From: Owenia fusiformis
Lineage: Eukaryota; Annelida; Polychaeta; Sabellida; Oweniidae
NCBI GenBank assembly: GCA_903813345.2
Contig: CAIIXF020000009.1
Span: forward strand, 35,209,759-35,273,758
Length of the DNA: 64,000 nt
Reading direction: 5' to 3'
Shown here: piece after piece, positions 10,015 through 43,965 of the stretch
Layout of the letters: every line of letters begins with the position of its first letter
Numbering within the stretch: position 1 is the stretch's first letter
Made by a program: the position numbers and the translations under genes
Notes under the pieces: model-generated
Seen by the model: only the letters and a program-made list of their open reading frames with translations
Database searches by the model: none
Told to the model about the DNA's origin: nothing

Positions 10015-10023
10015 TTTATAAAA
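10015..10023 (+). promoter_or_regulatory. TATA-like box before candidate alternative first exon
   Basis: TTTATAAAA lies about 100 bp upstream of the ATG at 10123. A start site about 30 bp downstream would give a 5' leader of roughly 75 bp. In DNA this AT-rich such a box is expected often by chance, so it only supports the first-exon call. Confidence 0.25.
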
Positions 10024-10122
10024 CTACAAAATAATGGAATAATCACTAACCTAATTTACATACAAAGGGATTAACGGAAAGGATTATCCATTGGAAAAAG
10101 TGATTTCTAAAAAAAATTCAAA

Positions 10123-15821: not shown

Positions 15822-17627
15822 TCCTATGAGACACTACTGTACAATGCTGTTCCTTATGTATGAGACACTACTGTACAATGCTGTTCCTTATGTATGAGGC
15901 ACTACTGTACAATGCTGTTCCTTGTGTATGATACACCATTGTACAATGCTGTTCCTTGTGTATGAGGCACTACTGTACAATGCTGTTCCTTGTGTATGAT
16001 ACACTACTGTACAATGCTGTTCCTTGTGTATGAGGCACTACTGTACAATGCTGTTCCTTATGTATGAGACACTACTGTACAATGCTGTTCCTTGTGTATG
16101 AGACACTACTGTACAATGCTGTTCCTTATGTATGAGGCACTACTGTACAATGCTGTTCCTTATGTATGAGACACTACTGTACAATGCTGTTCCTTGTGTA
16201 TGAGACACTACTGTACAATGCTGTTCCTTATGTATGATACACCATTGTACAATGCTGTTCCTTGTGTATGAGGCACTACTGTACAATGCTGTTCCTTGTG
16301 TATGATACACTACTGTACAATGCTGTTCCTTGTGTATGAGGCACTACTGTACAATGCTGTTCCTTATGTATGAGACACTACTGTACAATGCTGTTCCTTG
16401 TGTATGAGACACTACTGTACAATGCTGTTCCTTATGTATGAGGCACTACTGTACAATGCTGTTCCTTATGTATGAGACACTACTGTACAATGCTGTTCCT
16501 TGTGTATGAGACACTACTGTACAATGCTGTTCCTTATGTATGAGACACTACTGTACAATGCTGTTCCTTATGTATGAGGCACTACTGTACAATGATGTTC
16601 CTTATGTATGAGACACTACTGTACAATGCTGTTCCTTGTGTATGAGACACTACTGTACAATGCTGTTCCTTATATATGAGACACTACTGTACAATGCTGT
16701 TCCTTATGTATGAGACACTACTGTACAATGCTGTTCCTTATATATGAGACACTACTGTACTATGCTGTTCCTTGTGTATGAGACACTACTGTACAATGCT
16801 GTTCCTTATGTATGAGGCACTACTGTACAATGCTGTTCCTTATGTATGAGACACTACTGTACAATGCTGTTCCTTGTGTATGAGACACTACTGTACAATG
16901 ATGTTCCTTGTGTATGAGACACTACTGTACAATGCTGTTCCTTATGTATGAGACACTACTGTACAATGCTGTTCCTTATGTATGAGGCACTACTGTACAA
17001 TGATGTTCCTTATGTATGAGACACTACTGTACAATGCTGTTCCTTATGTATGAGACACTACTGTACAATGCTGTTCCTTATGTATGAGGCACTACTGTAT
17101 AATGCTGTTCCTTGTGTATGAGGCACTACTGTACAATGCTGTTACTTATGTATGAGACACTACTGTACAATCGCTGTTCCTTATGTATGAGACACTACTG
17201 TACAATGCTGTTCCTTGTGTATGAGGCACTACTGTACAATGCTGTTCCTTATGTATGAGACACTACTGTACAATGCTGTTCCTTATGTATGAGACACTAC
17301 TGTACAATGCTGTTCCTTATGTATGAGGCACTACTGTATAATGCTGTTCCTTGTGTATGAGGCACTACTGTACAATGCTGTTCCTTATGTATGAGACACT
17401 ACTGTACAATGCTGTTCCTTGTGTATGAGGCACTACTGTACAATGCTGTTCCTTATGTATGAGACACTACTGTACAATGCTGTTCCTTATGTATGAGGCA
17501 CTACTGTATAATGCTGTTCCTTATGTATGAGGCACTACTGTATAATGCTGTTCCTTGTGTATGATACACTGCTGTACAATGCTGTTCCTTGTGTATGATA
17601 CACTACTGTACAATGCTGTTCCTTATT
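15822..17627. repeat. 34-bp minisatellite, about 53 copies
   Basis: Head-to-tail units of about 34 bp carry the core ACTACTGTACAATGCTGTTC followed by CTT(A/G)TGTATGA(G/T)(A/G)C. Units differ mainly at three or four diagnostic positions. The order of variants repeats: the block starting near 15933 is reproduced 306 bp (nine units) later, near 16239. The unit is not a multiple of three and ORFs through it are chance. The array ends about 430 bp before the exon at 18060. Confidence 0.9.
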
Positions 17628-18010
17628 TAAGGAACATTGTTCAGAATTGTATCGTACTCTAGTACACTGTGGAGCGTCGTATGGTACTCTACAGTCTCTG
17701 CATGATACAGTATTGTACATGGTATTTACTGCACACTTTATAGTTTTATGTAGTACTCTACTGTATATTGGACAGTACTGCATGGTACTCTACAGTCTCT
17801 ACCTTACATTGTACAGTATTGTATGGCATACCACTGTTCGCTGTATAGTATTGTATGGCACTCTTCTACTATTTAATGGGCAGTACTATTCGGTACTTTA
17901 CTCTGTGCAGATTTGTATGGTACTGTACTGTGTATTATACAAGTTTATATAGTACTCTACCATACATCATAGTTCTTATACTGAGATGTATTGTATTGTA
18001 CTGACTGTAT
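17628..18010. repeat. Degenerate flank of the minisatellite
   Basis: Diverged relatives of the array core, such as TGGTACTCTACAGTCTCT, GTATTGTATGGCA and ATGGTACTGTACTGTGTAT, continue for about 380 bp. This is probably the decayed old edge of the array. Overlapping ORFs on both strands (17535-17783 and 17647-17952) come from the repetitive composition. Confidence 0.55.
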
Positions 18011-18059
18011 GGCATGCTGTTCTGTAGGCTTAGATTAACGCACGCCATGCATTTTCCAG

Positions 18060-18107
18060 ATGATGATGCCTTCTTACCCACTGACATCAGAACCATTTAT
18101 TCTACTG
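18060..18107 (+). CDS. SORBS-like small exon (phase 1-1, 48 bp)
   Basis: The acceptor is ATTTTCCAG and the donor ACTG|gtaagc, both strong. In phase 1 it reads DDDAFLPTDIRTIYST and leaves in phase 1. Being symmetric, it is skippable and can be joined from either 7943 or the candidate first exon ending at 10318. It is an acidic, tyrosine-containing segment just upstream of the SoHo exons. I recognise no domain. Confidence 0.6.
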
Positions 18108-20476
18108 GTAAGCATGTTTTTCTGCCACAACAATTCACCATACGCTACTTATAGCGGAACTGTCAAAATGTGTGAATCTTTTATTTTGAGAAAATCTCTA
18201 ATTTTTGTTCTTGTGCTGTTACAATACAAGTACTCAACTTTTAGACATTTGTAAATCTTTGTCAAAAACAACACTTTTATCGGTTTGAAATAACTAATTT
18301 TCTATTCTTTTGATAACCTTTGACCATACAAGGGATTAATTCATCAATCCATTTTTGGTTTATACTAAAGCCATTTATGAGTAAATACGATACTGTTCCA
18401 GATCCTATTATACAGGAATTTCATGTTACTTTAATCCTATTCTTTATTTCAATGATATTCCTTGATCTGGAAGTTAATGTGACATAATACCATTTGGTTT
18501 TCATTGAAATTGAACCACTGAGGTCTCTTATCTCACGATTCTTGTAATAACATGAGATCAATGGGGCTCAAAGCTATAAAGAAACACTGTTTTGATTATA
18601 CAACTGTGCTGAGTGAACATAGAAAATCGTACATCAAATTCAAGAACTTCGTCTTCTCTCTATACTGAAAATAATGAGAATAGAAATTTGAAGTCAAATT
18701 CAGGAATTGAGATTTTGATAAACTGGAATAATTCGAGAGGGAAATTTAATGGAGAACACAGTTAGTGTTAGAATTGTCGGGGAGATTGAATTCAAACAGG
18801 CCATGATGAATATGGTGATCGTTACAACCAGGACGCATGTTAACAACCTTGTAAAAGGTATACTTTACCAGTTCTATGTCTTAATTTTTATTTATTTATA
18901 TATTTTTTGTATTGTTTTGCTTTTCTTTATTAGTTTAGTTTAATACCTAATATAGTAATTTCACACATTTATTTGGCACTCTAAATTTCCTCAGCATTTT
19001 CTAATAATTTTGATTGTTTTGTATGCTTGATTGATTCCTTCTTTGAATGAATATCTTATTTTTTAATGATTATGATTTTATTATGTTGCCACAAATGGTG
19101 ATGACATATTGTTACAGTCTCCAACTTTTTTTGGATGGTGTTCAATGTCTGGCGGTAGGTATTTTGCATCTGTAACAAATTGCAAGTGGTGACATTTTGC
19201 ATGTTAATGCCTTGTGTGCTAATGTTTTTAAAAGTTGATGATTGACGACCATACACATTACACATGTATTACAGGGAGACAAGAAATTCTTACTAATCAT
19301 TTGCCATTGATCTTATATTTTCCTTAGCTATTGTATGTCTGATTACAGTAAAATCTGTGGAAAGTGAACACCCTGTAAGGCAAAATGAAACATCCCGTTG
19401 AATTGTGGCTACCACATCTTTCCATGCTCCCTATCACTTGATAATGACAGGTTGGAGACAGTGCATTATCTAATATGGTAATCACACAAAAGGATATGCT
19501 GTACCTTGACATATATATACTCATGTCAACATAGTATTGCCAAGTAGGCATACCTGGATGTCTATATGACAGTTGCCAAATACAAGGTCATAAAGACTAT
19601 AATGTACGATTCTGTTTGTATTGGTTCAATTTTGTGCCAAAACCTTCGGGCGACATTTTGTAGTTTAGAACAGCAATTTGTCAAATATACATTGCTTGTA
19701 TTGCTCATGAGTGGAACATCCTCTCCCCTTTGAATTATTTCCTGCTTATATGTCTACAAGGCTTTTCATTGGAATGAAATGATCAATTGTTTGTAAGCTG
19801 AAGATAGCTGGTTGAAGAGTACAGTAAAGCATTATGGGTCCATACATGATTTGGATTGTTACAATCAGTCCAAATGTCATTTTTAGTTGAGATACTTTTT
19901 CAACTTCACAATTTATATTTTTTGATTAATTATCAGATTTATGTATTTCCTTGTGCTTTTTCCTCATTTGCACCCGGAATAATTTTTCATTTTGCTTCAT
20001 CGTAGGGGAATTTTTATCTCAGTGATTTCGTTAATTTTGTATACCTTCCATCCGCAAGTGTCAAAATGTGCACACAAATTGGTTTTGCATCAAAATTCCT
20101 TGAAATAAAAGGAAAACTCAGTGATCGAATGTAATTGTTAAATTACAAATCAGTTTTTCATTACCATGAATATTGTGATTTTTAACGAATTGAGAAATTA
20201 CTGAACAATATTAGATATATTCCTGTATATATTCCTGCTTATTTCACTCTAATCTATCATACTACAGCATTTGTATTATAATAGACTATAATACAGCATG
20301 GTGTTCATTTGCCCATGGATATAACCCATAATGTTGCTGGTAATGCTATTGCCCAGCAACCAAAACCTGTACAATTATGTAGTATTTTTGTAAAACATAC
20401 TATATATGGCAATGATATTGTACCTATGGGTACCATCTTTAAAATTATATTTATGATTTTTTTTGTTTGTTTCCAG
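18108..20476 (+). other. Intron, 2.4 kb
   Basis: Apart from the weak first-exon candidate at 18749-18857 and a pogo-like end (ACAGTAAAATCTGTGGAAAG) at about 19346, I see no supported feature. Confidence 0.4.
18749..18857 (+). CDS. Weak candidate alternative first exon
   Basis: An ATG at 18749 opens a frame beginning MENTVSVRIVGEIEFKQAMM that reaches a donor AAAAG|gtatac in phase 1. That phase fits the SoHo exon at 20477. No acceptor with a pyrimidine tract lies just upstream, so if real it would be a first exon. The initiation context is poor at -3 but has G at +4. Composition is unlike the neighbouring exons. It may be chance. Confidence 0.3.
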
Positions 20477-20673
20477 AGGGCCAGATACCAAAAGGTGCTG
20501 TTTATGTGGGAACTGAAGAAAAAGTTGAGGGAGAAATAAAGCACACCGACCAATATTATTTAGTGCCCTCTGGTGAGAAAACCAAAACCACTAGAAAGAT
20601 TGAACAAAAAGCCCCGAAATATCAAGGCATTGGGCCAACCAATGAAAAGGGAGTGCCTGTCGGGCTAAGATCT
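20477..20673 (+). CDS. SORBS: SORBS-like exon, SoHo domain first part
   Basis: The acceptor is TTTGTTTCCAG and the donor AGATCT|gtaagt. Phase 1 in, phase 0 out, 197 bp. The product runs from EGQIPKGAVYVGTEEK through DQYYLVPSGEKTKTTRK to YQGIGPTNEKGVPVGLRS. The last part matches the first half of the sorbin homology (SoHo) domain, whose vertebrate versions have a G-I-(P/G)-x-x-x-(D/E)-x-G-V-P-V-x-x-R-S pattern. Family knowledge: the CAP/ponsin SoHo domain binds flotillin and helps place the protein at lipid rafts. The second half lies in the exon at 21990. Confidence 0.85.
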
Positions 20674-21989: not shown

Positions 21990-22062
21990 CACATTGATGA
22001 CAAAAACCAGAAGGACTGGTACAAACAGATGTACAAGACATTGCACAAGCAGCCCAAAAGAG
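21990..22062 (+). CDS. SORBS: SORBS-like exon, SoHo domain second part
   Basis: The acceptor is TTGTATTTCAG and the donor AAAAGAG|gtaagc. Phase 0 in, phase 1 out, 73 bp. It reads HIDDKNQKDWYKQMYKTLHK then QPKR. The D-W-Y-(K/R)-x-M-(F/Y)-K-x-x-H core is the most recognisable part of the SoHo domain (vertebrate ponsin has a matching KDWYRSMFKQIH-type core). With the exon at 20477 it completes the domain. This is the strongest single piece of evidence for the gene's identity. Confidence 0.9.
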
Positions 22063-23553: not shown

Positions 23554-23628
23554 ATGATGAGAACCCCTACTCACCGACATATACCTTTCCAGAATCTTCC
23601 GATGAAGAAGGTAGCACCAAACAGGAAG
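23554..23628 (+). CDS. SORBS: YxPxYxFP repeat exon 1 (75 bp, phase 1-1)
   Basis: The acceptor is TGTCTTGCAG and the donor GGAAG|gtaata. It reads DDENPYSPTYTFPESS then DEEGSTKQE. It is the first of the short phase 1-1 exons carrying the motif P-Y-x-P-x-Y-x-F-P. A second in-frame donor, GAAG|gtagca at 23610, would shorten the product by six residues. It directly follows SoHo. Vertebrate SORBS proteins carry a related tyrosine/proline stretch (Y-N-T-P-Y-T-Y type) in this position, here apparently multiplied. Confidence 0.8.
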
Positions 23629-23667
23629 GTAATAAACAAACAGTCAAATAAAGATCATCATTTATTT

Positions 23668-23925
23668 ATTGATCCTTTATTGAAATTGCCTCAGTTGTTG
23701 AATTATTAAATATCCTAAATAATTGAATTATCCTCAATTATTGAAACATCCTTGGATATTTGAATATTCCCAACAGTTGAAATATCCTCAATGAATAACA
23801 ACTAAAACATTCTTGGATATTGAAACTTTCCTCATTTGTTGAATTATCCTCAATAAATGAAACATCCTCGGTTATTCAAATATCCTCATCTATTGAACAA
23901 TCCTCAATTATTGAAATAACTGTCA
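23668..23925. repeat. Diverged short tandem repeat (ATTGAAATATCCTCA-type)
   Basis: About ten loose copies of a 24-32 bp unit resembling TTGAAATATCCTCAATTATT lie in the intron just after repeat exon 1. An open frame through part of it (23820-24071) follows from the repeat composition. Confidence 0.6.
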
Positions 23926-24935
23926 TGTTTTCCTGTAAGAACCCAAGACTGAATTACAGTTTATGTCATTATTGTGTGTCATTGATATATATTTTTATTG
24001 TACATATTAATTTCATTCATGATTTATTTGTTGTTAAATGTTTAGAGTATTGTGGTGTATATGCACAATAATTGTTGTAATGTTGTATTGTGTTTGCACC
24101 GTTGTCATGGTAGTATTACACCATGGTAACTTATCAATCCATTCCCTATCATAGTCATTACATTTCATCTCTTTGCCATTACATTTACCAGCTAATGCAT
24201 ATAATAGCTCCATTCCGACAAGGCTTAGGATTCTTTTAAGAATTTTCTTCAACTCTGTAAATTTTTTATTTTCATTATTCTAATGAAGAAATGTCTGAAG
24301 TCATTCAGTATTTCTAGATGTTTCATAATCTCACCTGTTTTTGGCTGTGTGCAAGATATTCAAAATCTCATACTAAGTAAATCCTAGGTTAATATACAAC
24401 TCTGGGGTGATGACAGCAAACTGATCCCCTGTGAATCATAAACTGCTTATGTCTGCACTTTCTCTTCAACCTTACTGTTAGCTTCAGCTTCTCTATCTCT
24501 TTACTATAAACATATATTACATGTCAACCCTATACGATGAAGACACTGTATATCTTAGAACCAGTATATCTTCATCGTGATAACCAGCCCTCCTTTGTCT
24601 TGATGTTTTCAAAGTGTTGCAAAATACAGATAAGAGGGGTCTAGTAAACCAGAATGGTATGTCTCTGGCCCTCTTGTTTTTAAAAATGGCCCAATTTGTC
24701 TTTAAACATGGCCCAATTTGGCTCACTTGTTCAGGACACCTAAGGATTTATTATTATGCAGAGGCTCTCAATTAGACATTTTCACCACTGTCTTGTAGAC
24801 TGGTATTGACATCCATGTAATTAGACCTTTCAAACAATGTTATTCTGATCATCTAAATTTACATCTAGCATAATTTAGCATAGTCTAGCTCTTTAGCATA
24901 ATTTTATTTCCCTTTTCTGTTGTTGATATTTACAG

Positions 24936-25016
24936 CAAATAGGTCCAAGAGAGACCCATATAAGCCCATCTATGTCTTCCCTGTACCTGATTGGTGGGAA
25001 GACCCTGTTTTAGAAG
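24936..25016 (+). CDS. SORBS: YxPxYxFP repeat exon 2 (81 bp, phase 1-1)
   Basis: The acceptor is ATATTTACAG and the donor AGAAG|gttagt. It reads ANRSKRDPYKPIYVFPVP then DWWEDPVLE. The motif is P-Y-K-P-I-Y-V-F-P, followed by an unusual W-W pair. Symmetric and skippable. Phase, size and motif match its neighbours. Confidence 0.78.
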
Positions 25017-25025
25017 GTTAGTTAG

Positions 25026-25350
25026 CACTTGTCTCTATGGAAACCAGAGACTTGTGCTGTCTCCTTAGATACCAGATCATTTTTTTGTTTTGCAATGGCG
25101 TCCATTGTAGATATGTTTTATTTTGCTGTAGTAACCATGAATACATCAGGACCATTTTGTGATACTTTGAAATCTGGAGTGGCATGATGCTGCTATAGAA
25201 ACCAGAGTATCACTTTGTTGCTATGGAATCCAATGTAACACTTTTTGCACTGGAAATATAGTAACATATTGTCATCATAGAATGCTGAATGCCATAAAGT
25301 TGCCATAGAAACCAGAGTAGCATTCATTTGCCATAGAAACCAGAGTAGGA
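25026..25350. repeat. Diverged repeat of ATAGAAACCAGAGT
   Basis: Copies of CTATGGAAACCAGAG and CCATAGAAACCAGAGTAG recur at irregular 30-90 bp spacing after repeat exon 2. They are non-coding and imperfect. A (TTTG)n microsatellite follows at about 25685-25726. The rest of the intron to 26102 shows nothing. Confidence 0.5.
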
Positions 25351-26102
25351 TATTTCTGCTTGGAATTGATTTTGAAGAAATAAGCATTTAGGGAATGTTT
25401 AATTATTCTTTCATGGAGTATGGGCTTTGCTACATGTAGGTTGCGATGGTTTATTTATTATAAGGTTCATAAATGAGTATGATAATGGAAAATCATTTTG
25501 AAGTACCCACGTTATCACATTCTGTCCCCTCGTTTCAGTTTGTATTTTATCTAGCATTGTTATTTTGAGCTTGTATTCTAGTTTTCCCTCATTCTGATAT
25601 CCCTTTGGTTGCATAATGTTAGCCATAGCATGATAGAATTGATCACTTTTTCAGTTCATCAGAACACACTTGTTGTCCCAACTTTGTTTGTTTGTTTTGC
25701 TTGTTTGTTTGTTTGTTTTTGTTTATGAAAATGTTTGTGTAGTGTATATATACAATGTTTTGAGCTTGCATCAGTGTTTGCAGTTTTTATATACATGAAT
25801 GATTTTACTGTTTAGGTTAATAAGGATTCTCATATGAAAAAATTCAACTGAAATGGGTTGATATTCTGTAAATTTAGACCCTGCATGTCCAATATTAAGC
25901 GATAGTATATATGCTGTATGCATATACGATCTCATAAAGGAACCTGAGTTAAATGAACAACTATGCATATAATCTATGACCCTCTAGGTAGAATTGTTTC
26001 TCTGTATATGTCCCTTTAAATGGACATGTATTAGTAGATGTTTTGCATTGTTGTTAGAATCGCAATTTCTTTATCTTTCTATCCTCTCCTCGTTTCTTCC
26101 AG

Positions 26103-26171
26103 CCTCTGATATCAATCCTTATATGGCAACGTACAAGTTTCCTAAGCTCTCCTCGAGGTCAAAAAGTCAAG
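26103..26171 (+). CDS. SORBS: YxPxYxFP repeat exon 3 (69 bp, phase 1-1)
   Basis: The acceptor is GTTTCTTCCAG and the donor TCAAG|gtcagt. It reads ASDINPYMATYKFPKLSS then RSKSQ. The motif appears as P-Y-M-A-T-Y-K-F-P, so the middle proline is replaced by alanine. A serine/arginine tail follows. Symmetric phase 1. Confidence 0.78.
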
Positions 26172-26531
26172 GTCAGTTTTGGCTTGGTGTGTGTGTGAAC
26201 TGCATTCTTCCATATATGGGCATATTGTCTTAGCTTGATTTATTTTTTGTCAGTGTGAAGCATTTTTATTTCCTGATGTATGTTGATTATATTTATTTTT
26301 TATTTTTGTCTCAGTTGGTTTCATAATTTGATTTATCTTTCATATTAGTTGGGGGTTACACAGGTTCCTAGTTCTATTGAACTGACTTTTTAAAATAGGC
26401 AGAATCCATCACTAATGACCCCCCCCCCAAGTTAATGAACCATTTAGCTTAATTGTGGGATAACATTTGTTTTGGTTATTAAACATATTGAATTTAGCTT
26501 TAATTTACTAATCTTCTTCCCTTTGTTTTAG
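26172..26531 (+). other. Intron, 360 bp
   Basis: Contains a run of ten cytosines near 26420; nothing else seen. Confidence 0.4.
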
Positions 26532-26594
26532 TTTCCAATACTTATGAGCCTCGGTATGAATTTCCCCCACCTGAGGTCAAGGTCGTACCTAAAG
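26532..26594 (+). CDS. SORBS: YxPxYxFP repeat exon 4 (63 bp, phase 1-1)
   Basis: The acceptor is TTTGTTTTAG and the donor AAAG|gttaga. It reads VSNTYEPRYEFPPPEVK then VVPK. The motif is T-Y-E-P-R-Y-E-F-P and runs into P-P-P. Symmetric phase 1. Confidence 0.78.
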
Positions 26595-26753
26595 GTTAGA
26601 GGTCAATGTGTGCAAATACTAGAAGTGATTTGGATTTAAAGGCAAATTAAATATTAGAATACATGTTCAGTACATATCTTCGAGTATTATTTAGGAAGGA
26701 TTTAAATGTGTTGATAAATGTGTTCCATGAACAGGCACATATATTTTTTACAG

Positions 26754-26810
26754 AAAAAAATCCATATTCACCGACCTACAAGTTTCCAGAGGATGAGGTC
26801 AAACGTCCAG
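26754..26810 (+). CDS. SORBS: YxPxYxFP repeat exon 5 (57 bp, phase 1-1)
   Basis: The acceptor is TTTTTTACAG and the donor TCCAG|gtcaga. It reads EKNPYSPTYKFPEDEVKRP. The motif is P-Y-S-P-T-Y-K-F-P, almost identical to that of exon 1. The tail EDEVKRP resembles PPEVKVVPK of exon 4, which suggests recent exon duplication. The intron before it is only 159 bp. Confidence 0.8.
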
Positions 26811-27161
26811 GTCAGATAATTGGTCCCTTTTGGTTTGAATGCAAAGTTTAAATCAACACAATTTGTGTCGTTTTTCTTCACCCAAATGTCACTGTGAAAT
26901 ATGAAGTGGTATTTTTAGGTTAGGTTGAATACCTGTTGTTATGCATGGATACACCTCTGTTGTTGGATTGATTTAGGTTTTGGGATCATTTTTGATTTCA
27001 GCAAATGAGTCTTCTATGTTGTTGTTGAACCATATGTAGTTTTAGGGCTAGTGAATGTTTCCCAATTTCCTACTAAACTTGAAGCCATATGCTAGATAGT
27101 TGTAGTAAATTCACCTTCAGTCCACGACCTATTAATTTTATTTTATCCACTACACTTTCAG
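26811..27161 (+). other. Intron, 351 bp
   Basis: No further feature seen; it ends in a pyrimidine-rich acceptor CACTTTCAG. Confidence 0.4.
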
Positions 27162-28160
27162 AACCCAATCCCCCATCAGTCCCTAAGGAAAATCAAGACA
27201 CATTTAAGAAAATTTCAAACTCAACGCTTGATGCCGAATTCTCCAATAGAACAGAAGAAAATGATGTTAATTCTCAGATTGATTCTGAATTAATGAAGGT
27301 GAACAAACTTGACCGTGAAATCTTGGAGGAGATCAAATATATTGATAAACATTTAAAAGTTGGTAGCCCAGATATTGCAGAAGAAATTCGGAAGATTGAT
27401 ATACAGTTAAATAGTTATTCTCCAAAAAGAATAGATCACCCTAACACATACTCACCAACTTATACATTTCCTAAGACAGGGGAGAAGATAGCTGCAAGAG
27501 ATATTCATACCGAAACTGAGACTGAATCAGAACTTGAGGTTCCGTTTGCTAAAGATGAAAATGAGGCTTTGACCTACTTACCAACATATAGTTTCCCTGC
27601 AAGAATAAATGAACCTACAAAGGAAGTAATGCCCCCATATACCCCAACATACAAATTCCCAATCAATAAATCTCAAAATTCAAAAGAAGAATCACCAGAG
27701 GAGGGTCACTATACATCCCAAGATCCCCCAAAACATTCCCCTCAAGAGAGAGAAAGTAAGACAGTGACACCAAAGGCTGACAAAGGCAAATATTGGTATG
27801 AGCCAAATAAGACCTTGTTGGAAGAAAAACACATTGAACCACCTGTTCCTAAATCAAAACTAACACGCAATGCTCTTAAATACTTTGAAGCAATTCCCGA
27901 ACCGCTAAATGTTGCAAGATATAAACCTAATTACAAGCATCAGCCAGATGCTACCCCTGGTAACTATGTAGAAATTCAACCTACACCTAGTGATACGGAT
28001 GAATCAACTCAAGACAGATCTTTGAATAAAACACACAGCGATGACATAAAGGATTATAAACCAACTTATACCTTTCCTAAAAGTTTTGAAGATGCTAGGC
28101 GCATGGCTCGTGAGCATCCACCCAGTAGCGACGATGATTCATGGCGTGAGGATTCCGAAG
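27162..28160 (+). CDS. SORBS: Large repeat exon with five YxPxYxFP-type motifs (999 bp, phase 1-1)
   Basis: The acceptor is ACACTTTCAG; the best donor is CCGAAG|gtagct at 28160/28161, giving phase 1-1. It begins EPNPPSVPKEN, then an acidic, leucine-spaced segment that is probably helical (VNKLDREILEEIKYIDKHLK). The motifs follow: TYSPTYTFP, TYLPTYSFP, PYTPTYKFP, a degenerate RYKPNYKHQP, and DYKPTYTFP. Between them are charged disordered linkers and a KYWYEPNKT variant. If the donor is not used the frame runs on to a TAA at 28211-28213 (tail beginning SFSTMYHPTLANHNMG). I see no perfect AATAAA soon after that stop, so I favour splicing. Confidence 0.8.
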
Positions 28161-28613
28161 GTAGCTTTTCAACCATGTACCACCCGACACTAGCTAACCA
28201 TAACATGGGATAAGGATTTCAATGTTGTGTCTTCTAGCCCATTGTGATAACAAAATGTCCAATTTATCCTCTACCATAAACACCAAAACCACCAATACAC
28301 AATCTCTAACATTTAGTTATTAATTACATGTGTGAATTAACAAATAACCACAGAGTTTTTAGTTATAAGATTTTCACTTGCAGATGTTTAACAATATTTA
28401 AGGAATTACGTAAGATTATTAATATATGAAAATATGAATGTTTAAGGTTTCATCTAGCAGAATCTGACACATAAACATGATTAAGAGTGATGATGAATTA
28501 TGATTTATAAAATTAATGTTTCACAACAGGTTATAACTTAGGACTGGGGTTTTCTCATCACTTAACATTGTGTTATTTGGTGTATTACAATATTGTTTAT
28601 TTGTTGTTTGTAG
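28161..28613 (+). other. Intron, 453 bp (or short alternative 3' end)
   Basis: The first 53 bases continue the upstream frame to a TAA at 28211-28213. The rest shows nothing further. Confidence 0.4.
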
Positions 28614-28697
28614 GGCCTCCTATACCTCTTGTAGGGCCTCCCATACCTCCCAAACCTCGCCCTCGTTCTCCTCGTATAATCATAAATCCTCCTGGAG
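28614..28697 (+). CDS. SORBS: Proline-rich exon (84 bp, phase 1-1) with duplicated acceptor
   Basis: The acceptor is GTTTGTAG and the donor TGGAG|gtcagt. It reads GPPIPLVGPPIPPKPRPR then SPRIIINPPG. IPPKPRPRSP is a likely SH3 or profilin/EVH1-type ligand. The first 21 bases duplicate the start of the remainder, including the acceptor: a second CTTGTAG|GGCCTCC at 28634/28635 lies exactly seven codons downstream, so either acceptor keeps the frame. It interrupts the YxPxYxFP series. Confidence 0.65.
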
Positions 28698-29673
28698 GTC
28701 AGTGAACTTGCATGTGACCTTGACCTGATTTCTGAGCCAATCAGAATCATTGTTATATTTACCTCTAATAAACAACCAATCATGTGTTGTTTACGAAATT
28801 GGTGGATGTAACAGTGGTTATGATTGGTTAATGCTCTGCAATTATGTTTTTCAGTCTGTTTAACAAAGCATGCTATGTTGTTGCTTTCTCTAACTTCACA
28901 TTTTCATATGAAACATCATGGTTAGCTTGATATCTCTTATATCTGCAACCATGATTCTTTCAAATGTTTTCAGTTCATACTTGTGTATATACATTTGAAT
29001 ATAGGTATTTCATTTTTATAAGAAGCTTAGACTTATATTCACCATTTGCCACATTTTCTATTCCTCATGTACATTGTACAGGTAAAGGATTTGTCTTGGA
29101 ACATACCTTTCAGAAACACACCAGTGTTCATTCAAGGGGCACAATGATATTGAGAATTTAGATGAATTTTTCTTGATATTGAACAACATTTGAATAAATG
29201 ATTTCAGAGTAGTTGGGAGGACTCAGAATTTTTTTTATTTGAAGCCATGGTGAATATAGTCCAGTTCAGTCTAGATCTATTTCACTTACATGTATTTTGT
29301 TTGACAAAGTGTGACACATAGATTTTATTTTACAGTTGTTCATTTTCAGGAATTGTTTTTAGCTAATTAATTATTGGCTTTATATTATTTGTACTGTACA
29401 AGAGAGGCACCTTTGTTGTTTTGGATAGGGTTAATCACATAGTTCCTGCTTTTCCAAATGACAAATGCATTAAATATATTAAATTGTATCATAATCAATT
29501 TCGAATTCACCAGCTTTTTAAAGATGGTGAAATAAAAAAAACTCTTCTTGATGAATATACTGACTGTCTTGGATAAACTTTCTACAAAGTTTTGTTTCCT
29601 ATCTATAAAGTATAACCTTGCATTGTCATATTTGAATTGCTGTTATTAATACGTTGAGTATTGTTTTTTGCAG
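28698..29673 (+). other. Intron, 1.0 kb, containing a decayed repeat-exon candidate
   Basis: It holds the candidate exon 28974-29081; nothing else seen. Confidence 0.4.
28974..29081 (+). pseudogene. Candidate decayed (or cryptic) repeat exon (108 bp, phase 1-1)
   Basis: A good acceptor (AATGTTTTCAG) and donor (TACAG|gtaaag) enclose 35 open codons, phase 1 in and out. The second half reads LDLYSPFATFSIPHVHCT, where YSPFATFSIP looks like a worn copy of PYSPTYTFP. The first half (VHTCVYTFEYRYFIFIR) is hydrophobic and unlike its neighbours. I read it as a repeat exon losing its motif; a live, diverged exon is possible. Confidence 0.35.
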
Positions 29674-29739
29674 ATGAGAATCCCTACACTCCCAACTATA
29701 TGTTCCCCACTAGTCAATACTCCAGGGACATGGATAAAG
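29674..29739 (+). CDS. SORBS: YxPxYxFP repeat exon (66 bp, phase 1-1)
   Basis: The acceptor is GTTTTTTGCAG and the donor AAAG|gtgaga. It reads DENPYTPNYMFPTSQYS then RDMDK. The beginning D-E-N-P-Y-(S/T)-P-x-Y matches repeat exon 1 (DENPYSPTY) very closely. Last clear single-motif exon of the cluster. Confidence 0.8.
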
Positions 29740-29752
29740 GTGAGATACGTAA

Positions 29753-29945
29753 CATATCCCATATGTCCTTTATGAATATGAAATGTATCCTGTAGACATA
29801 GAATATATCCAATAGATATAAAATATATCCCTTGAATAGGAAGTATATCCTATGGATACAAAATATATCCCATGGATTTGATATTTATTACATGGATAAA
29901 GAATATATACAAAATATGTATCAAATGGATTTGGTATGTGTACGA
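29753..29945. repeat. Short tandem repeat (AAAATATATCCC-type)
   Basis: About six or seven imperfect copies of a unit near 26-27 bp (GATATAAAATATATCCC, GGATACAAAATATATCCCAT) start right after the repeat exon's donor. Intronic, no coding meaning. Confidence 0.6.
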
Positions 29946-30241
29946 TGAATAATTAAAACATAGGATATGAAGTGATAACATGGGTGCAACATATAAATCT
30001 GGAAAAAATATTTTGTCATATGGTAGTGTGAGTGGGAATGTTTTTGGGCCTTTCACCTCCACATGTTCAATATCCATTGCATAATCAATTAAATATGTGA
30101 ATCGGGTATCAAGTTTACTCATTATTTTGTCAATAACAGTAATAGTTAGTCATTTATGAAAAGGTATTAATTTTAAATGCTAGTTTATTTGATCAATTTA
30201 TGTCTACGTATTGACTGAAAACCAATAATTTCTATTTTCAG

Positions 30242-30371
30242 ATGAGACAAGATCTTTAGACCAATACGCCACCTATCCAAGAAGTAAGAGTTTATCAGAG
30301 GCAAGGCCGACATATGATACAACAAGTGACGTAGAATATAGTAGCAGTACCACAGAACGACCAAGGAAAAG
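30242..30371 (+). CDS. SORBS: SORBS-like linker exon (phase 1 to 2)
   Basis: The acceptor is CTATTTTCAG and the donor GGAAAAG|gtaagt. It reads DETRSLDQYATYPRSKS through LSEARPTYDTTSDVEYSS and ends TTERPRK. It closes the phase 1-1 series and changes phase to 2 for the YEPG exon. D-Q-Y-A-T-Y-P may be a remnant of the repeat motif. The serine/arginine segment RSKSLSEARPTYD has the look of a phosphorylation site region. Confidence 0.75.
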
Positions 30372-33300
30372 GTAAGTGTTGCTATAATTGAAGACTGACT
30401 TGTTATTTTACCTGTACACCATTATCATGCCAAGAACAGTTGTATTTCTGGTCTACGGTAAATGGCAGATTTTAAGTAGAGTTGACTAACCTGGGTCCCT
30501 GCAAAATTGGAACATTATTGCAGGAAAATTTTTAATATGCTATGGACACTTAACATTGAATTTCACTTTCCATCTCTTTGTTAAATCCATTCTATAGCAT
30601 CAGATATTCAATCATTTTAAATTTTTGTTGATTTAATTACTTTCAAAACACTCTAAAATACATTTAAACACTAATTATATGTTCATATTGGACAGGTGTG
30701 TCTACCTGACCTTAATTACTGCTATTATGACCTGTGGTGCCAGCTGAAAAAATTGCCGTTATGTTACAAAATTGGAAAAATTCTATAAAATATTTGTTTC
30801 CTGTTAAATGTTACTTATATAATTCCTAATCACATCTTTGACTTATAAGAAATGAGATTTTCAATACTTAATATTTCAAACATGTATATCACAAGCTGAT
30901 ACTGATATTAATATAGACATCACCAAGAAGTAATTAATCTATGTGTCTATGACATCAATCTACGACAGTGAACAGCTTGCACAATAAATGTGATTGTCAC
31001 ATCTTTCACAGGTAATGAAATTATGACAGGTTTACATTAACAAGGAAGCTTGGAACACCTTTTGTAAAATATACAAAAATGAATTTAGCTCTGAATCTGC
31101 TTTTTATTATACACCAGTATTTGAAAGTGTGGATGGAATGAGAATGAAGATTTGGGAGTGCATAAAATAGGAGAGTACATCATTTACTTAGAACAGGAAT
31201 CAAATGTAGTTTTTTAAGGATGCCTTATTCTTGACTAATTACGATTTTATGACAGCTCTCAATTATACATCTTCCAATTTTACATATAGAGAATCTTTTA
31301 TTGTAAAACAAAGACACTAGGATTGAACGTACAGATTTATTAGGTCGAGATACACTTTTTGGATTAAAGATGGATTAGAATTCCTCAGAATGTATCAGAC
31401 AGGGGTTTATATTCCTAAGGAGTTCCGGGTTATACTTAACATCCGTGACCAAGTTAGCTCGGGGTAAGTGATTATCATCAAAGAATACAACTGCACTATG
31501 GATCAATAGAGCATGCCACATGAGTTCAACAAAATTTCAATTTGATTTGACTTGACACTTTGGGGATATTGTAATTGAAATGTAAAATAAAATCTTGATT
31601 TGGTATAAGTAAATGTCATTTTGGACTCTATCTATGGTCATTAAATGTAACTTAGGTCAAGACTTCCAATTTAAGGTAGTGCTATTAGATGTTTAGAGGC
31701 TGAAAGTATAATATAGTATTAGGAGACCAGCTAGTAATATAGATGTATGACCTTAAAGATAATGTAGAAGTATTTGAAGGATTATAATATATTTGTGATT
31801 ATCTTCAGACAAATAAACTCAGACTCTCTCAAGGCCAAATCAGTGATCTCTAATGATATCAATATCTTATAAGCAAATATTGTAAAACATGCATTATTAT
31901 TTGGGAGTCTCATTGTCAAAACAATGGCATGATACACAGCCATTTTTTAACTTCACATATTCTGTAAAGAATGGCTATATTTAAAGAATTTTTCTGTTAA
32001 GACTGTTTTGACTCATTGAAGAATATATATAGGGAAAACTTGCCTGTGTATGAATTGTTAATTTTAAATGTAGCAAATAGATAATTTTTATGAATAAAGA
32101 ATTTTAGATATTCTGAAAAATATTAAATATTATGAATTCATCATGAGACAAAATACTAGGTTAAGAAACCTTGGAGAAACTTTCATGCACAAATTAAACA
32201 TGTTCTCCAGTAAAATCTGTCTTATCTGAATTCCTCAGGGACCAGTCAAAAGTGTTCTTATTGGCAGGTGTTTACATTTCAAGTTTTCTTTAAACTGGGG
32301 GTCAGTTGGTGATTAATCAAAAAAGAGAGTTTTCTCATTGAGAGGTGTTCAGACATACCAGTTTTATTGTATATTATGAGTCATTTATAAATAACTTACA
32401 TGTAGTTAAGACATGAGATATGTGATGTCAAGTTAATGTATCTGACATCATTAAACTTCTGTTAGACATTGAAAGATAAAGTTCTATTGTCATTGGCATG
32501 TTTTTACATACAGTTGGTTCGACAAACAATCTCTTATTTTTGAAATTAAAGTAGCATCGAGATAGGATAATCGCAATGGTTAGGCTTCCCACTGACCTTT
32601 AAATTTTTTCTATTCTTTAAGTGCAATTTTAGTAGTTTATGTTAAAAGATATGTATTTACCTTAATGTTCTAGAAAAGGGGATTTACTATTGAAAGGTGT
32701 ACCATATAGCACTTACTCTTAGAGTCCTAGAAATATGTCAACTATCAAGTAGAGCAATAATTCTACAAGCGACCAAATGAATATGAAGTGTACTAAAGAT
32801 AAGATTTAGTTGTGTTTAGAAGTTTTGTAGTATTGAGCTCATCGAAATAGACAAGAATGTAAGATAGATTCTGCATAGGGACTAGCTGTATATTATAGTT
32901 TGAATATTTTTTAACATGAGTGCTACAGGTACGGGTTAATTTAGTGGATAATTTGAGTGGATTTATAAGAAGGGTATTTGATGCATCTTTAGCATGGCCG
33001 CATCATATTCCATGCTTCAGGACAAGCAAAGCAATAGGCGAAGGTAAGAATATGGTAGATTAGATTCAGAGTGTGATATTTAGGAAACTTCTTAACATTG
33101 ATATATTGACTTTTTGGTATACTGAGGATATGATATTGAAATTCAGAGCCCTTGTTACAAGATCCGGATGACTTGAAATTACTAGGATGTACTGTATTTA
33201 CCTCAGTTTTTCTGTTGTTATTATCTGTTCTGGAGGCAGTGAATCTTGGATATATCTTAGCTAAGGTTTAGTGTAAGGTTATAAGTGAGTGAATTCCTGG

Positions 33301-33503
33301 ATATACGAGTATAAAGCTGAGGTATAGTTACTGAGTGAATTTTGGGATGTAAGATATGGTTTAGTGAGTCTCATGATTTAGATTGTATTGAACAGGCTAG
33401 GGTTACCAATGTCATTTTACTAGAAAGGGGTTCCAAAGGGAGTCCCTTATTTGAAAATGAAACCCTGTATTAGTTTGTAATTTTTTTGTTTTTTTTGTTA
33501 CAG
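30372..33503 (+). other. Intron, 3.1 kb
   Basis: Apart from the exon candidate at 32993-33043 I see no feature. A degenerate pogo-like end (CCAGTAAAATCTGTCTTATC) lies at about 32208. Confidence 0.4.
32993..33043 (+). CDS. Candidate alternative first or cassette exon (MAASYSMLQDKQSNRR)
   Basis: An ATG at 32994 with strong context (A at -3, G at +4) reads MAASYSMLQDKQSNRR to a donor GCGAAG|gtaaga in phase 2, the phase required by the exon at 33504. An AG at 32991-32992 just upstream would also make it a 51-bp phase 2-2 cassette. As a first exon it would produce a short isoform lacking SoHo and the repeat cluster, comparable to the short vinexin (beta) form in vertebrates, which lacks SoHo. The sequence does not decide between the two. 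Confidence 0.5.
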
Positions 33504-33627
33504 TCTCGGATCATCCTGGGCCCCGCCACATGCCAGGTCCAAACTAGAGGTCTACAAGAACCAACCACGCAGCATAGTAGACTATGAGCCTGGATTCTCT
33601 TCAATAGCATTTAAGGAGGCAAAATCT
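33504..33627 (+). CDS. SORBS: SORBS-like exon with RSIVDYEPGFSS motif
   Basis: The acceptor is TTTTTGTTACAG and the donor AAATCT|gtaagt. Phase 2 in, phase 0 out. It reads SLGSSWAPPHARSKLEVYK then NQPRSIVDYEPGFSSIAF and KEAKS. The (K/R)-S-I-x-(D/E)-Y-x-P-G-x-S-S pattern is shared with vertebrate SORBS proteins, where P-K-S-I-Y-E-Y-Q-P-G-K-S-S precedes the SH3 domains. It confirms the gene's identity independently of SoHo. Confidence 0.85.
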
Positions 33628-33849
33628 GTAAGTATAGTCTTGGGCTGAATAAATCTCAAGATATGATTGGTTGAAGAAATGGCTTAATATTAAAATATTA
33701 ATTAGCATTAAGAGAATTTCATGCATTTTTTGGGCATGTTTGGGATGAAAACACATTGCTAATAATTACAAAAACATTGTGGATATTTAGTTGCAATAAA
33801 ATGATGCACAATTTGATGAACATGCATGCCATTGCATTTATGTTAGAAT

Positions 33850-34229
33850 AAAGGACCAGATATGGTATGGTAAATGATTAAAACAGTCGCATCTTTAACC
33901 ATCACTTTACTCTGATCATAAATACTACATTTTTGTGAATGAAGTTATTAGGATAATAAATATATCAATCCAACTCTCACTAAAACTATTGTTTTGGACC
34001 TGTTCTTGTCACATTTTTAGCCCCCATGTCTGATATTTTGAAAAATGTGTTGAGATGGGGTCCTCATGGTTTCCCGGAGAAAGCGACTGTTAATTTTATT
34101 ATCCTTTGAACTTACTTGGAGGAAATTGACCTTACTTGAAAGAAATTATAAATATTTAATGGTGAGAAAGTACTCATGGTCAAAGATATGACCGTGTGAG
34201 ATCATTTGCCATACCATGCCTGGTCCTTT
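33850..34229. mobile_element. MITE, about 380 bp
   Basis: Left end AAAGGACCAGATATGGTATG and right end reverse-complementing to AAAGGACCAGGCATGGTATG form terminal inverted repeats. The inverted similarity continues inwards for about 60 bp. No coding capacity. A related segment, inverted, lies at 44301-44450 inside the second fold-back element, so this is a family. Confidence 0.65.
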
Positions 34230-34778
34230 GCTGCTGTTCTCATGATTTAATGAACACAAGCCTGTTCATTGTATGTACCCATATAACAGATAATTTCAAG
34301 ATGTTGACTTAAAATCATATAACATATTTACATTTTGGGATCTCTCTGGGATCAGTAAATAAGTAAAGGGTTTGAAAACAACTTCTGATTTCGTGAAACC
34401 CCTCCCAAGTTATTTTGATTTCTTGTAATTTTTTGTTACTGGGTAATCAACAAACAGGTTCATTGTACCATATACCATATACATATATTGTACTTAATTG
34501 TATTGCAAGATTGTGTTTAAATGAATGATTGTACATAATGTGTGTTGTACAACTTATGGCTGGCAATAATTGTATGTTTGCACCACAACTGATTGTCTCT
34601 GGCCATTTAGCAATTATTATATGTCAAATGAATTAATCCTTAAAAATAATTATAACATCAGGATTGGGAGAGTGTTTTCACATTAATTGACTCATCATCT
34701 TATCACTCACCGGTAACTATGGTAACCAACCATCTTGATTAATTTCATCAAATCAAACTAATTTTCATCTAATTGCAG

Positions 34779-34802
34779 TATCCAGGGAAATATCGCCATT
34801 TG
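34779..34802 (+). CDS. Candidate microexon YPGKYRHL (24 bp, phase 0-0)
   Basis: The acceptor is TCTAATTGCAG and the donor CATTTG|gtaata. It encodes YPGKYRHL with phase 0 at both ends, fitting between 33627 and the next phase-0 acceptors. The Y-P-G start echoes the Y-E-P-G of the preceding exon. So short an exon can arise by chance; moderate support only. Confidence 0.4.
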
Positions 34803-35569
34803 GTAATAAACATATTTTGATATAGAATATATTCTAAGTGTCTTATTTATGTGGATTTGGATAATGTAACATTGTAATATTTATAAAGAAATGTAGTGTC
34901 AAAATGCGTTCAGTTTTGCTTTTGTAAATGTTCATTGAAGTAATATGTCAGCAAATTAGAGAGAATTCAAAACAAATTGATGCCTCAGGTATTAATTTAG
35001 GCTTCTATTTTGATATAATTGGGAAGGGTTTTATTCTTTATTTTTGTGATAGTTTCTTTGCTTTTGTATTCATATGGTATATCATAATTATATAGTCCAA
35101 ATTAGAATAATGGCCTAACAAGCTTGGCTCATAATTAATGTATACTTCATTAAAAGATGTCACTGCCCTTAGATTTAATAAACGTCAATACTATACGCGC
35201 TGTAACAATATTGCTGTTGTAAATGAGAAAACATCTCTGCTTACGCTTTTAGATAATTTTCATATTGTAAATTAAATGCATTATAATTCTAGTCCTTTTT
35301 GATATTGTCTCTCGTAAAATCGAAAATAATTTGCTTTATAGTTATGTAAAATAACATAGATATTTTGTCATGTGGTGTACTTTTATTGCACATATATGTA
35401 TATCATATTCACATAATTCTAAAATATTTCATGCCTAAATGTTTTTACGAAATTACAAATACAAGTTTGGTGTTATTATTCAATTCATAATGATTCCTCT
35501 CGCTTGAATTTTGTTGGGAAAACTCAAAAGTCATGAAATATTTTATTGGATATTGGATACATGTTTTAT

Positions 35570-35622
35570 ATGATATGATATATTATATTATGATATGATA
35601 TGATATGATATGATACGATTGA
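35570..35622. repeat. (TGATA)n microsatellite
   Basis: About ten TGATA/TATTA units, intronic. The surrounding intron 34803-35709 shows nothing else. Confidence 0.7.
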
Positions 35623-35709
35623 ATTGTGTTCCACACATTGTTGTGATATATAGTTGAACATTCATGATATTCTTTCTGTTTCCTTACTAACAATGCTGTG
35701 TGTGTCTAG

Positions 35710-35727
35710 GACGAGAAAGTCAATGAG
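35710..35727 (+). CDS. Candidate microexon DEKVNE (18 bp, phase 0-0)
   Basis: A TTACTAAC sequence matching a branch-point consensus lies about 30 bases before the acceptor GTGTGTCTAG. Six codons DEKVNE follow, then the donor GAG|gtagtg. Phase 0-0. The branch point and pyrimidine-rich tract make it more credible than its size suggests. Confidence 0.45.
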
Positions 35728-36023
35728 GTAGTGTATATAGCTTGCCAGTATTTGCATCTTTCGTTAATTGTTGCATATTTAGAATTTTAGATAAGTTCTT
35801 AGATATTTAAGACATACCGTAGTGTCCAAAGCTAGGTTGGTTTTGATTGGTTAGTTGAATATTTCTGTTATGAGCTTTGATTTTGTGATATTGAATCGTG
35901 AATACTAAACATAAGTCCAAAATGTCAGTAAATATCTTATGTACTACCCTTTCATTGTGTTTTCAAAATCAGATATATACATGGATGTTAGCATTCATGT
36001 ATTTTGTATCATTTTGCATAAAA

Positions 36024-36303
36024 ATGCTTGCATCAAGCGTGAACAGCTATAAGAAATGCTTGCATCAAGCAGGGACAGCTATAAGAAATGCTTGCATCAA
36101 GCAGGGACAGCTATAAGAAATGCTTGCATCAAGCAGGGACAGCTATAAGAAATGCTTGCATCAAGCAGGGACAGCTATAAGAAATGCTTGCATCAAGCAG
36201 GGACAGCTATAAGAAATGCTTGCATCAAGCAGGGACAGCTATAAGAAATGCTTGCATCAAGCAGGGACAACTATAAGAAATGCTTGCATCAAGCAGGGAC
36301 AGT
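36024..36303. repeat. 32-bp minisatellite, about 9 copies
   Basis: Nearly identical 32-bp units with the core TGCTTGCATCAAGCAGGGAC followed by AGCTATAAGAAA. TGCTTGCATCAAGCA is an imperfect palindrome inside each unit. The array ends about 55 bp before the left end of the transposon at 36358. Confidence 0.9.
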
Positions 36304-36602
36304 CATAACATGGTACATTGAAAAACATATAAGCAAGTTACATGTAGTTTGTTTATACAGGGTGACCGGAAAAAAAGGAGACCATTGAAGTAATCAATTT
36401 CTCCTAAACTAGACAAGTGCCATCAATGAAATTTTGCATACACTGGAACAGTTATATGGAAATTTGTTACTGAAGGTTTCAATACAAGCATTCAACTGGT
36501 TCAGGAGCTATGATCATTTACATAACATGCTCCAAATAGGCACAATTGAGACCAACGCAGAGTTGGATTCATATGGCAAACTACCCTTACATGTTCTGCC
36601 CT

Positions 36603-36740
36603 CTATGGCATTATTATGGCATTACATATAGCAGTGATTGCCTTCTTTAGGTCAACAATAGTCTGAGGATTGTTTTGGTATAGATTGTCTTTCAAATATC
36701 CATACAAAAAGAAATCAGCAGGATTCAAGTCTAGGCTGTA
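36603..36740 (-). pseudogene. Transposase C-terminal fragment (DDE_3 type), minus copy
   Basis: The reverse strand reads YSLDLNPADFFLYGYLKDNL then YQNNPQTIVDLKKAI. P-x-D-F-F-L-(W/Y)-G-x-L-K-(D/E) is the hallmark end of the catalytic domain in many invertebrate mariner-like transposases, where the final acidic catalytic residue lies close by. Only this C-terminal part is preserved. It is a diverged inverted copy of the fragment at 36984-37121. Confidence 0.65.
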
Positions 36741-36983
36741 ATGGCAATGAAGGGTTATCTGACATGTGGTTCATCATCCTGTTGCCAAAGTGCTGATTTA
36801 CCAAATCTTAAGAGTCACTTTAGGTATTGGGCATAGTGCCATGTTACTAAAACCACTATATGGCACAATTAAATCCCATATGAAAACCAAGGGCTGCCCA
36901 AAACCTCCTTAGGATGATACTGTAACTGAGTGGGACCACTGAGTCAGAAGCCATAGGTCAGATAAGCTTCGTCTCCATACACC

Positions 36984-37121
36984 TCAAATTTGAATCCACC
37001 TGATTTCTTTTTGTGGGGCAATTTGAAAGACAATGTGTACCAAAACAATCCTGAGACAATTGCTGACCTAAAGGTGGCAATAGATGCTAAATGTAATGCC
37101 ATAACAATAGTCCGGATGTGA
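36984..37121 (+). pseudogene. Transposase C-terminal fragment (DDE_3 type), plus copy
   Basis: The forward strand reads SNLNPPDFFLWGNLKDNVYQ then NNPETIADLKVAIDAK and reaches a stop after IVRM. Same family block as the minus copy. Sequence upstream of it is frameshifted and unreadable. Confidence 0.65.
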
Positions 37122-43960: not shown

Positions 43961-43965
43961 AGGAA

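Follow-up and report, generated by a model that had tools for sequence, protein, structure and literature searches.

What does a tyrosine-proline motif repeated over a series of small exons do in an annelid gene, and can the number of its copies be set by splicing? The series lies in a 64,000-nucleotide stretch of Owenia fusiformis DNA, here called the window, and all features given below are on its forward strand. The first-pass annotation had read the locus as a SORBS gene with the array placed directly after the SoHo domain, and both points are supported by a match to Pfam Sorb (PF02208), the domain taken as the mark of the SORBS/CAP/vinexin (SoHo) adaptor family. The match covers the full profile (1-42) at residues 46-92 of the joined protein, with an E value of 1.4e-7 and 31.4 bits vs a curated cut-off of 27; it starts in the pre-SoHo exon at 20477..20673, which has AG/GT borders and an open frame and holds the first part of SoHo (...KYQGIGPTNEKGVPVGLRS), and goes on in the SoHo exon of phase 0-1 at 21990..22062 (HIDDKNQKDWYKQMYKTLHKQPKR). 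The evidence supports the locus as the post-SoHo region of an animal SORBS/CAP (sorbin-SH3 adaptor) gene, a relative of human SORBS1. The end of the gene, where three C-terminal SH3 domains are expected, may lie past the end of the window; with E 0.5 as the limit, no SH3 match turned up in any forward frame of 1-19802, 30372-36001, 44301-54232 and 60001-64000, nor in the frame at 54227-60121.

When the exons were drawn again from open frames and splice dinucleotides, they agreed with the series first proposed: six measure 57-81 bp, another 999 bp and a proline-rich one 84 bp, all of phase 1-1. Splice borders, an open frame and the motif pattern together define exons A (23554..23628, 75 bp, NPYSPTYTFP), B (24936..25016, 81 bp, DPYKPIYVFP), C (26103..26171, 69 bp, NPYMATYKFP), D (26532..26594, 63 bp, NTYEPRYEFP), E (26754..26810, 57 bp, NPYSPTYKFP), F (27162..28160, 999 bp, with the four full copies NTYSPTYTFP, LTYLPTYSFP, PPYTPTYKFP and KDYKPTYTFP and one degenerate copy) and H (29674..29739, 66 bp, NPYTPNYMFP), while the proline-rich exon G (28614..28697; GPPIPLVGPPIPPKPRPRSPRIIINPPG) is defined by its borders and open frame. 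All eight have AG...GT borders and a length divisible by three, and their junction codon, which begins with G in every case and reads D, A, V, E or G, is at no junction a stop, giving 256 in-frame combinations on paper. The earlier statement that every exon can be dropped without a frameshift therefore holds for A-H, but not for the last one, exon I (30242..30371, 130 bp, likewise drawn from splice borders and open frame), which is asymmetric (phase 1-2), carries no motif copy, is not skippable alone and closes the series. A reading of exon F as a short 3' end by read-through was rejected: a stop stands 50 nt past the donor, but neither AATAAA nor ATTAAA follows in the next 600 nt.

Written as Y-x-[P/A]-x-Y-x-F-P, the motif has ten full copies, one each in A, B, C, D, E and H and four in F. 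The first-pass annotation had counted about eleven, of which the eleventh (ARYKPNYKHQ, in exon F) is degenerate, and had given the form P-Y-x-P-x-Y-x-F-P, which in its strict version occurs just five times. In the A-H protein, Y-x-P-x-Y is found ten times and x-F-P comes next in nine of them; YMATYKFP of exon C completes the ten. None of the ten full copies lacks either tyrosine or the F-P, although the search pattern already held the two tyrosines and mostly the F, leaving the final P and the low rate of near-misses as independent evidence. The window has ten copies, vs 0.055 on average over 200 Markov-1 simulated windows. Two simpler patterns compare differently with shuffles: the ten YxxP sites of A-H, all of them the second tyrosine of the motif, are within the range of shuffles for this composition (mean 4.3, maximum 12), whereas the ten YxFP sites are beyond it (mean 0.15, maximum 3).

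Could the array nevertheless be a neutral, low-complexity spacer that grew by repeat slippage? Minisatellites in the neighbouring introns would suit such an origin, and so would exon F, much of which is without predicted structure. The copies, however, are carried on separate exons with unrelated spacers, and 1000 shuffles of the A-H protein hold 0.002 copies on average, vs the ten found. Codon choice, too, is randomised among copies whose peptide is conserved: where two copies share a residue, the codon is identical in 109 of 285 pairs (0.38), vs 0.475 for random codon choice. We regard slippage as highly improbable. Since synonymous codons are randomised between copies, it is the peptide, and not recent DNA duplication, that keeps the copies alike, and by this comparison the array is old and its peptide under selection.

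The same comparison rules out recent exon duplication, and with it part of the earlier view of A/H and D/E as duplicate pairs: the same codon is used at only three of seven (A/H) and three of six (D/E) shared residues. What stands of that view is the common tail E-V-K of D and E (GAGGTCAA), though GAGGTCAA occurs, out of frame, in exon C too. The downstream intron flanks of D and E resemble each other more closely than any of 100 shuffles, as one of 30 flank comparisons, and for the upstream flanks of A and E one of 100 shuffles is as alike; no other of the 30 reaches 3/100 or less. At the DNA level, the closest copies are F1/F4, A/F1 and A/E.

How far is the array peculiar to this lineage? 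In human SORBS1, SoHo is presumably followed by three motif copies, the third ending in F-S. This presumed stretch aligns with exons C-D-E at a score of 116, reached by none of 500 shuffles, and in it the NPY-x-P-T-Y-x-F-P copies follow SoHo in C-D-E order and at nearly equal spacing, as they do here. The earlier remark that vertebrates have only a related stretch looks understated, given three presumed clear copies. Vertebrates thus seem to have shorter arrays of this kind, of which the one here would be an enlarged form, and with ten copies here vs a presumed three there it would represent an expansion. Vertebrate SORBS2 (ArgBP2) also has a tyrosine-proline stretch after SoHo, but there the motif is presumably degenerate and without Y-x-F-P.

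Searches of public data returned no further relatives. The motif letters, the array and the presumed human SORBS1 letters were not found in the main texts of open-licence literature, and among the matches listed for SORBS in molluscs and other invertebrates (12 of 14), none, judged by title and abstract, concerns such an array. The DNA pattern for NPYxPTYxFP was met in two viral stretches of the same local sequence (L001, L002) and five genome stretches, which we take as chance: six of the seven have stops in frame, the open one (L007) lacks a further copy, and none is SORBS-like by eye. In viral contigs searched at the protein level, none of three pattern matches was confirmed; solved structures gave no match up to E 10 with the SoHo exon plus A-E as query, and Rfam gave none at gathering score.

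We consider it about an even chance that this SORBS/CAP gene encodes a multivalent array of tyrosine ligands, expanded in its lineage, with the second tyrosines as candidate docking sites for Crk-type SH2 domains. The array would then be a largely disordered multivalent ligand, its ten copies spread over symmetric exons. The structure prediction for exon F agrees with disorder for three of its four full copies, which fall in blocks of mean pLDDT 45-50, but less so for the fourth, which at pLDDT 56-77 sits next to a short predicted helix; the N-terminal part of the exon, before the motif copies, is predicted to be helical. In this reading an adhesion kinase of the Src or Abl family would phosphorylate the second tyrosine (Y-x-F-P) of each copy, and the phosphorylated site could be docked by Crk-type SH2 domains in the manner of the p130Cas substrate domain or paxillin Y118. 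Exon G may add an SH3 ligand, and exon skipping could alter the number of docking sites per isoform. The pYxxP motif is reported as the Crk/CrkL SH2 consensus, bound by choanoflagellate Crk SH2 as well, and paxillin Y31 and Y118 are named among the ligands (PMC5043372); the paxillin 111-123 peptide is given as VGEEEHVYSFPNK, that is, YxFP (PMC3078918). Sorbs1/2 are listed among CrkL-associated proteins (PMC4719301), and SORBS1-CRKL binding has been reported again (PMC12624223). All ten second tyrosines match the YxxP consensus, the one Crk/CrkL ligand feature seen in the sequence.

Other observations fit less well. Most CrkL partners, about 86% of the top 61, are described as SH3 ligands, known or predicted, and not as SH2 ligands (PMC4719301). 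Phosphorylation of CAP by Abl and Src has been reported, in favour of the reading, but the Abl consensus is given as I/L/V before the tyrosine (PMC2777869). This consensus is matched by one of ten second tyrosines (exon B) and none of the ten first. The mapped CAP sites Y326 and Y360 presumably lie downstream of the array. Furthermore, docking of Crk alone would account for only one half of the motif, since the first tyrosine never varies either and yet does not form YxxP. The SH2 ligand proposed at the outset is plausible for the second tyrosine and not for the first, and the PTB ligand proposed beside it is not supported: PTB domains prefer N-P-x-Y and the motif has N-P-Y. The copies do not fit an endocytic Y-x-x-hydrophobic signal, a WW ligand (P-P-x-Y) or, as a general reading, an EVH1 ligand, which is resembled in exon D (FPPP) alone.

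The invariance of the whole motif raises a second explanation, doubtful in our view though not far-fetched, in which Y-x-P-x-Y-x-F-P works as one extended aromatic-proline peptide whose receptor is a folded domain, perhaps of SORBS itself or of a partner at the junction, so that the array self-associates and phosphorylation is an off switch. Two tyrosines and F-P kept in ten of ten copies, within the limits set by the search pattern, suit one contiguous face better than two SH2 sites. Against it, every second tyrosine matches YxxP, and no ligand class of such shape is known to us. Evidence cited for this and for the docking-site reading alike comes from ArgBP2, in which Y164 and Y175, the two of five sites compared, have the 11-residue spacing of the presumed post-SoHo MYNTP and LYNPP of SORBS2. 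All five were reportedly mutated jointly as Abl-consensus sites, and the mutant self-associates more, while tyrosine phosphorylation lowers self-association (PMC3903627). If the tyrosine-ligand platform is real, the array offers ten natural variants of one motif, with kept residues (Y, Y, F, P) set against free ones, and a single peptide could serve to look for what binds SORBS1 and SORBS2 just after SoHo.

A functional parallel to the docking-site reading is the substrate domain of p130Cas/BCAR1, also a YxxP array in an adhesion adaptor, with a repeat number reported to range from 6 to 25 across species (PMC5043372). Six or more YxxP in one region are found here too, although their number alone is not beyond shuffles, and man has 15 such sites vs ten in A-H. 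The Y-x-P-x-Y doublet is not known to us from Cas. The frames of the window that were scanned gave no Pfam match of Cas-type SH3 or FAT-like kind, though the gene may run on past the window; we do not file the array as a p130Cas member, and at most it may work like one. NCoR-family CoRNR boxes, as described in PMC4554918, similarly distribute short linear motifs over several exons, and alternative splicing diversifies them, but motif, partners and process are different, and the splicing is demonstrated for NCoR whereas here it is a possibility.

Is the exon choice, then, real? Combinatorial splicing of the array is possible, but 1-1 symmetry is also left behind by exon duplication and by itself is no evidence for it. 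All motif exons may always be included, the number of sites being fixed per species and the symmetry a relic, because serial duplication is harmless only where an exon is symmetric; this we hold to be a strong contender, if somewhat short of an even chance. Duplication alone predicts the symmetry, and nothing is unusual about the acceptors of A-H (CAG or TAG, 55-90% pyrimidine). Among nine splicing-factor words tested in the array introns, six were near expectation, including RBFOX-, QKI-, NOVA-, PTB- and TAAC-like words, and MBNL-like YGCY was fewer (30 vs 43 expected). Less easily reconciled with constant inclusion, though giving a mixed picture, are the donors of A-G. All seven deviate from GTRAGT at +3, +4 or +5, with scores of 6.1-8.4 bits, vs 10.3 for SoHo and H and 12.7 for I; the lowest score, however, is that of the pre-SoHo donor at 5.6. 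CELF-like TGTTTG is doubled (14 vs 7.0 expected, 0 of 200 simulations), at a density of 1.71 per kb, higher than the 0.75, 0.40 and 0.09 of three other stretches of the window, though with nine words tested and a TTTG microsatellite contributing; CAC pairs, from the same nine, number 14 vs 7.0 (4 of 200 simulations). SORBS genes are also reported as heavily spliced elsewhere, with 23 transcripts and 20 polypeptides for fly CAP (PMC7259718), and with alternative splicing of vertebrate SORBS1, whose exon 25 is under MBNL control (PMC12624223).

The boldest version, which we think rather unlikely, is that cell types pick from 0 to 10 YxFP sites per SORBS molecule, so that Crk-type signalling or adhesion clustering would be graded by exon count and not by expression, the 999-bp exon bringing four sites at once and exon G adding its SH3 ligand. 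If exon choice does vary, the locus would be a natural test of whether adhesion adaptors are tuned by docking-site number. At exon G, a 21-bp tandem repeat (28608..28649; Tandem Repeats Finder, 2.0 copies, 95% matches) doubles the acceptor TTGTAG and the first codons, placing two acceptors 21 nt apart; the second (exon start 28635), if used, would shorten G by seven residues in frame.

The window contains a eukaryotic gene structure in which the SoHo domain is encoded jointly by exons 20477–20673 and 21990–22062 (Pfam Sorb, E 1.4e-7). After it come eight exons, A (23554–23628, 75 bp), B (24936–25016, 81 bp), C (26103–26171, 69 bp), D (26532–26594, 63 bp), E (26754–26810, 57 bp), F (27162–28160, 999 bp), the proline-rich G (28614–28697, 84 bp), and H (29674–29739, 66 bp), all eight with AG/GT borders, phase 1-1, and a length divisible by three. 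A six-frame search of the window for Y-x-[PA]-x-Y-x-F-P yields ten matches, all of them within these exons (once each in A–E and H, four times in F), where 200 simulated windows average 0.055; in 1000 shuffles of the A–H protein, of 498 residues and 30 tyrosines, the mean was 0.002. YxFP occurs there 10 times against 0.15 expected from the 1000 shuffles, and plain YxxP 10 times against a shuffled mean of 4.3; as the 1000 shuffles reached a maximum of 12, the plain YxxP count is ordinary for this composition. The array is real and selected, and the first-pass annotation gave a good account of it. That annotation had placed coordinates 23554, 29674, and 30371 exactly and counted about eleven copies, of which ten are full and the eleventh is degenerate; the exon that holds the end of its range, exon I (30242–30371, 130 bp, phase 1-2), directly follows the series and has no motif copy.

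We read the copies as probably the outcome of old duplication and selection on the peptide. For same-residue pairs between copies, the codon is identical in 109 of 285 (0.38), less than the 0.475 expected for codons drawn randomly from this gene, and the copies are thus saturated at synonymous sites with the peptide still alike; x-F-P follows nine of the ten Y-x-P-x-Y in the A–H protein. Residual DNA likeness is seen in the pairs F1/F4 (the first and fourth copies of exon F), A/F1, and A/E. Codon use does not support the earlier suggestion of exon duplicates as far as recent events are concerned, shared residues having the same codon in 3/7 cases for A and H and 3/6 for D and E. Exons D and E have the tail E-V-K in common, and their downstream intron flanks are somewhat alike (0/100 shuffles as high, in one of 30 comparisons).

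After SoHo, human SORBS1 probably contains ENPYFPTYKFPE, DNPYTPTYQFPA, and SDLYSPRYSFSE. This presumed human stretch can be aligned to exons C-D-E across 57 columns with nearly equal spacing, with a score of 116 (0/500 shuffles as high). Of the five mutated tyrosines of ArgBP2, the two compared, Y164 and Y175, are presumably spaced like the post-SoHo MYNTP and LYNPP; mutating all five together is reported to increase self-association (PMC3903627). If human SORBS1 indeed has these copies, the array is less unique than first thought, and it is best classed as an enlarged form of something that SORBS proteins of vertebrates seem to possess already. The motif was not found in print in the main texts of the open-licence papers searched. 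Disordered binding motifs on tissue-specific exons are put forward as a general principle (PMC3437557), with the NCoR family as a case (PMC4554918).

The second tyrosine sits in Y-x-F-P in 10/10 copies and the first is equally invariant, a fixity that is partly by construction, the search pattern already containing both tyrosines and mostly the phenylalanine. If phosphorylated, the second tyrosines would be candidate docking sites for the Crk/CrkL SH2 domain, whose consensus is given as phospho-YxxP, with choanoflagellate Crk SH2 binding too and paxillin Y31 and Y118 as sites of this type (PMC5043372). Paxillin Y118 is printed as VYSFP, the same YxFP as in the array (PMC3078918), and p130Cas is reported to recruit Crk through multiple YxxP sites (PMC2689226). 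CrkL is listed as associating with Sorbs1 and Sorbs2, about 86% of its top partners in that work being predicted or known SH3 ligands (PMC4719301). CAP is described as a substrate of Abl and Src (PMC2777869). Only one of the ten second tyrosines fits the published Abl consensus, and Abl is no more likely to be the kinase than a Src-family or other enzyme. The mapped CAP sites Y326 and Y360 presumably lie downstream of the array, a 34-residue spacing in the presumed sequence matching theirs. The Crk reading leaves the first tyrosine unexplained; as that residue is invariant all the same, the somewhat less likely alternative that the motif acts independently of phosphorylation keeps some weight. 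Exon G contains PPIPPKPRPR, which resembles the SH3-ligand consensus. In a single-sequence folding prediction of exon F alone, three of its four copies fall in blocks of mean pLDDT 45–50 and the fourth at 56–77 beside a short helix. Residues 8–84 of the exon (27185–27415) are predicted as long helices (block mean pLDDT up to 93), and this part, unlike most of the remaining exon, is a possible coiled coil.

Exons A–H can each be dropped without a frameshift, as had been proposed; exon I, being 1-2, is not skippable alone. On paper, 256 combinations of A–H stay open, yielding 0 to 10 copies. Scored with an approximate human table from general knowledge, donors of A–G reach 6.1–8.4 bits; those of SoHo and H both score 10.3, that of I 12.7, and that of the pre-SoHo exon only 5.6. 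Among nine splicing-factor words in the array, two are raised, one is lowered, and six are near expectation; the raised TGTTTG is denser than in three other window stretches and owes part of its excess to a TTTG microsatellite (25683–25718). A 21-bp tandem repeat (28608–28649) at the start of exon G doubles its acceptor (TTGTAG) and first codons, and may allow a 7-residue in-frame acceptor choice. Degenerate minisatellites lie in the introns after exon A (23818–23918, 18 bp) and exon H (29776–29877, 20/40 bp). Genes related to this one are extensively spliced: fly CAP is credited with 23 transcripts (PMC7259718), and SORBS1 has an MBNL-controlled exon 25, placed immediately before the first SH3 domain and outside the post-SoHo array (PMC12624223). 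Actual skipping of array exons is weakly indicated, and combinatorial splicing is a fair hypothesis, no more.

Elsewhere in the window, a 5.9-kb open frame (54227–60124, 1965 aa) has no Pfam match and may be a very large exon belonging to the SORBS gene itself. A frame within 51837–52121 with SKEAYRQVLVGGEVPVSG resembles QIYKSVLEGGDIPLQG, a presumed human SORBS1 stretch (score 55, uncontrolled), and is perhaps a further SORBS exon. A large inverted repeat (36355–40676; six blocks, arms 90–98% complementary) carries a transposon-like coding block twice, in opposite orientations. The block has a Cys-rich end, and the only Pfam match, to MSL2-CXC, is sub-threshold (E 0.27). Nearby are a minisatellite (36018–36302; 32-bp unit, 8.9 copies, 97% matches) and, at 41490–44949, several arrays of satellite-like tandem repeats with a unit length near 180 bp.
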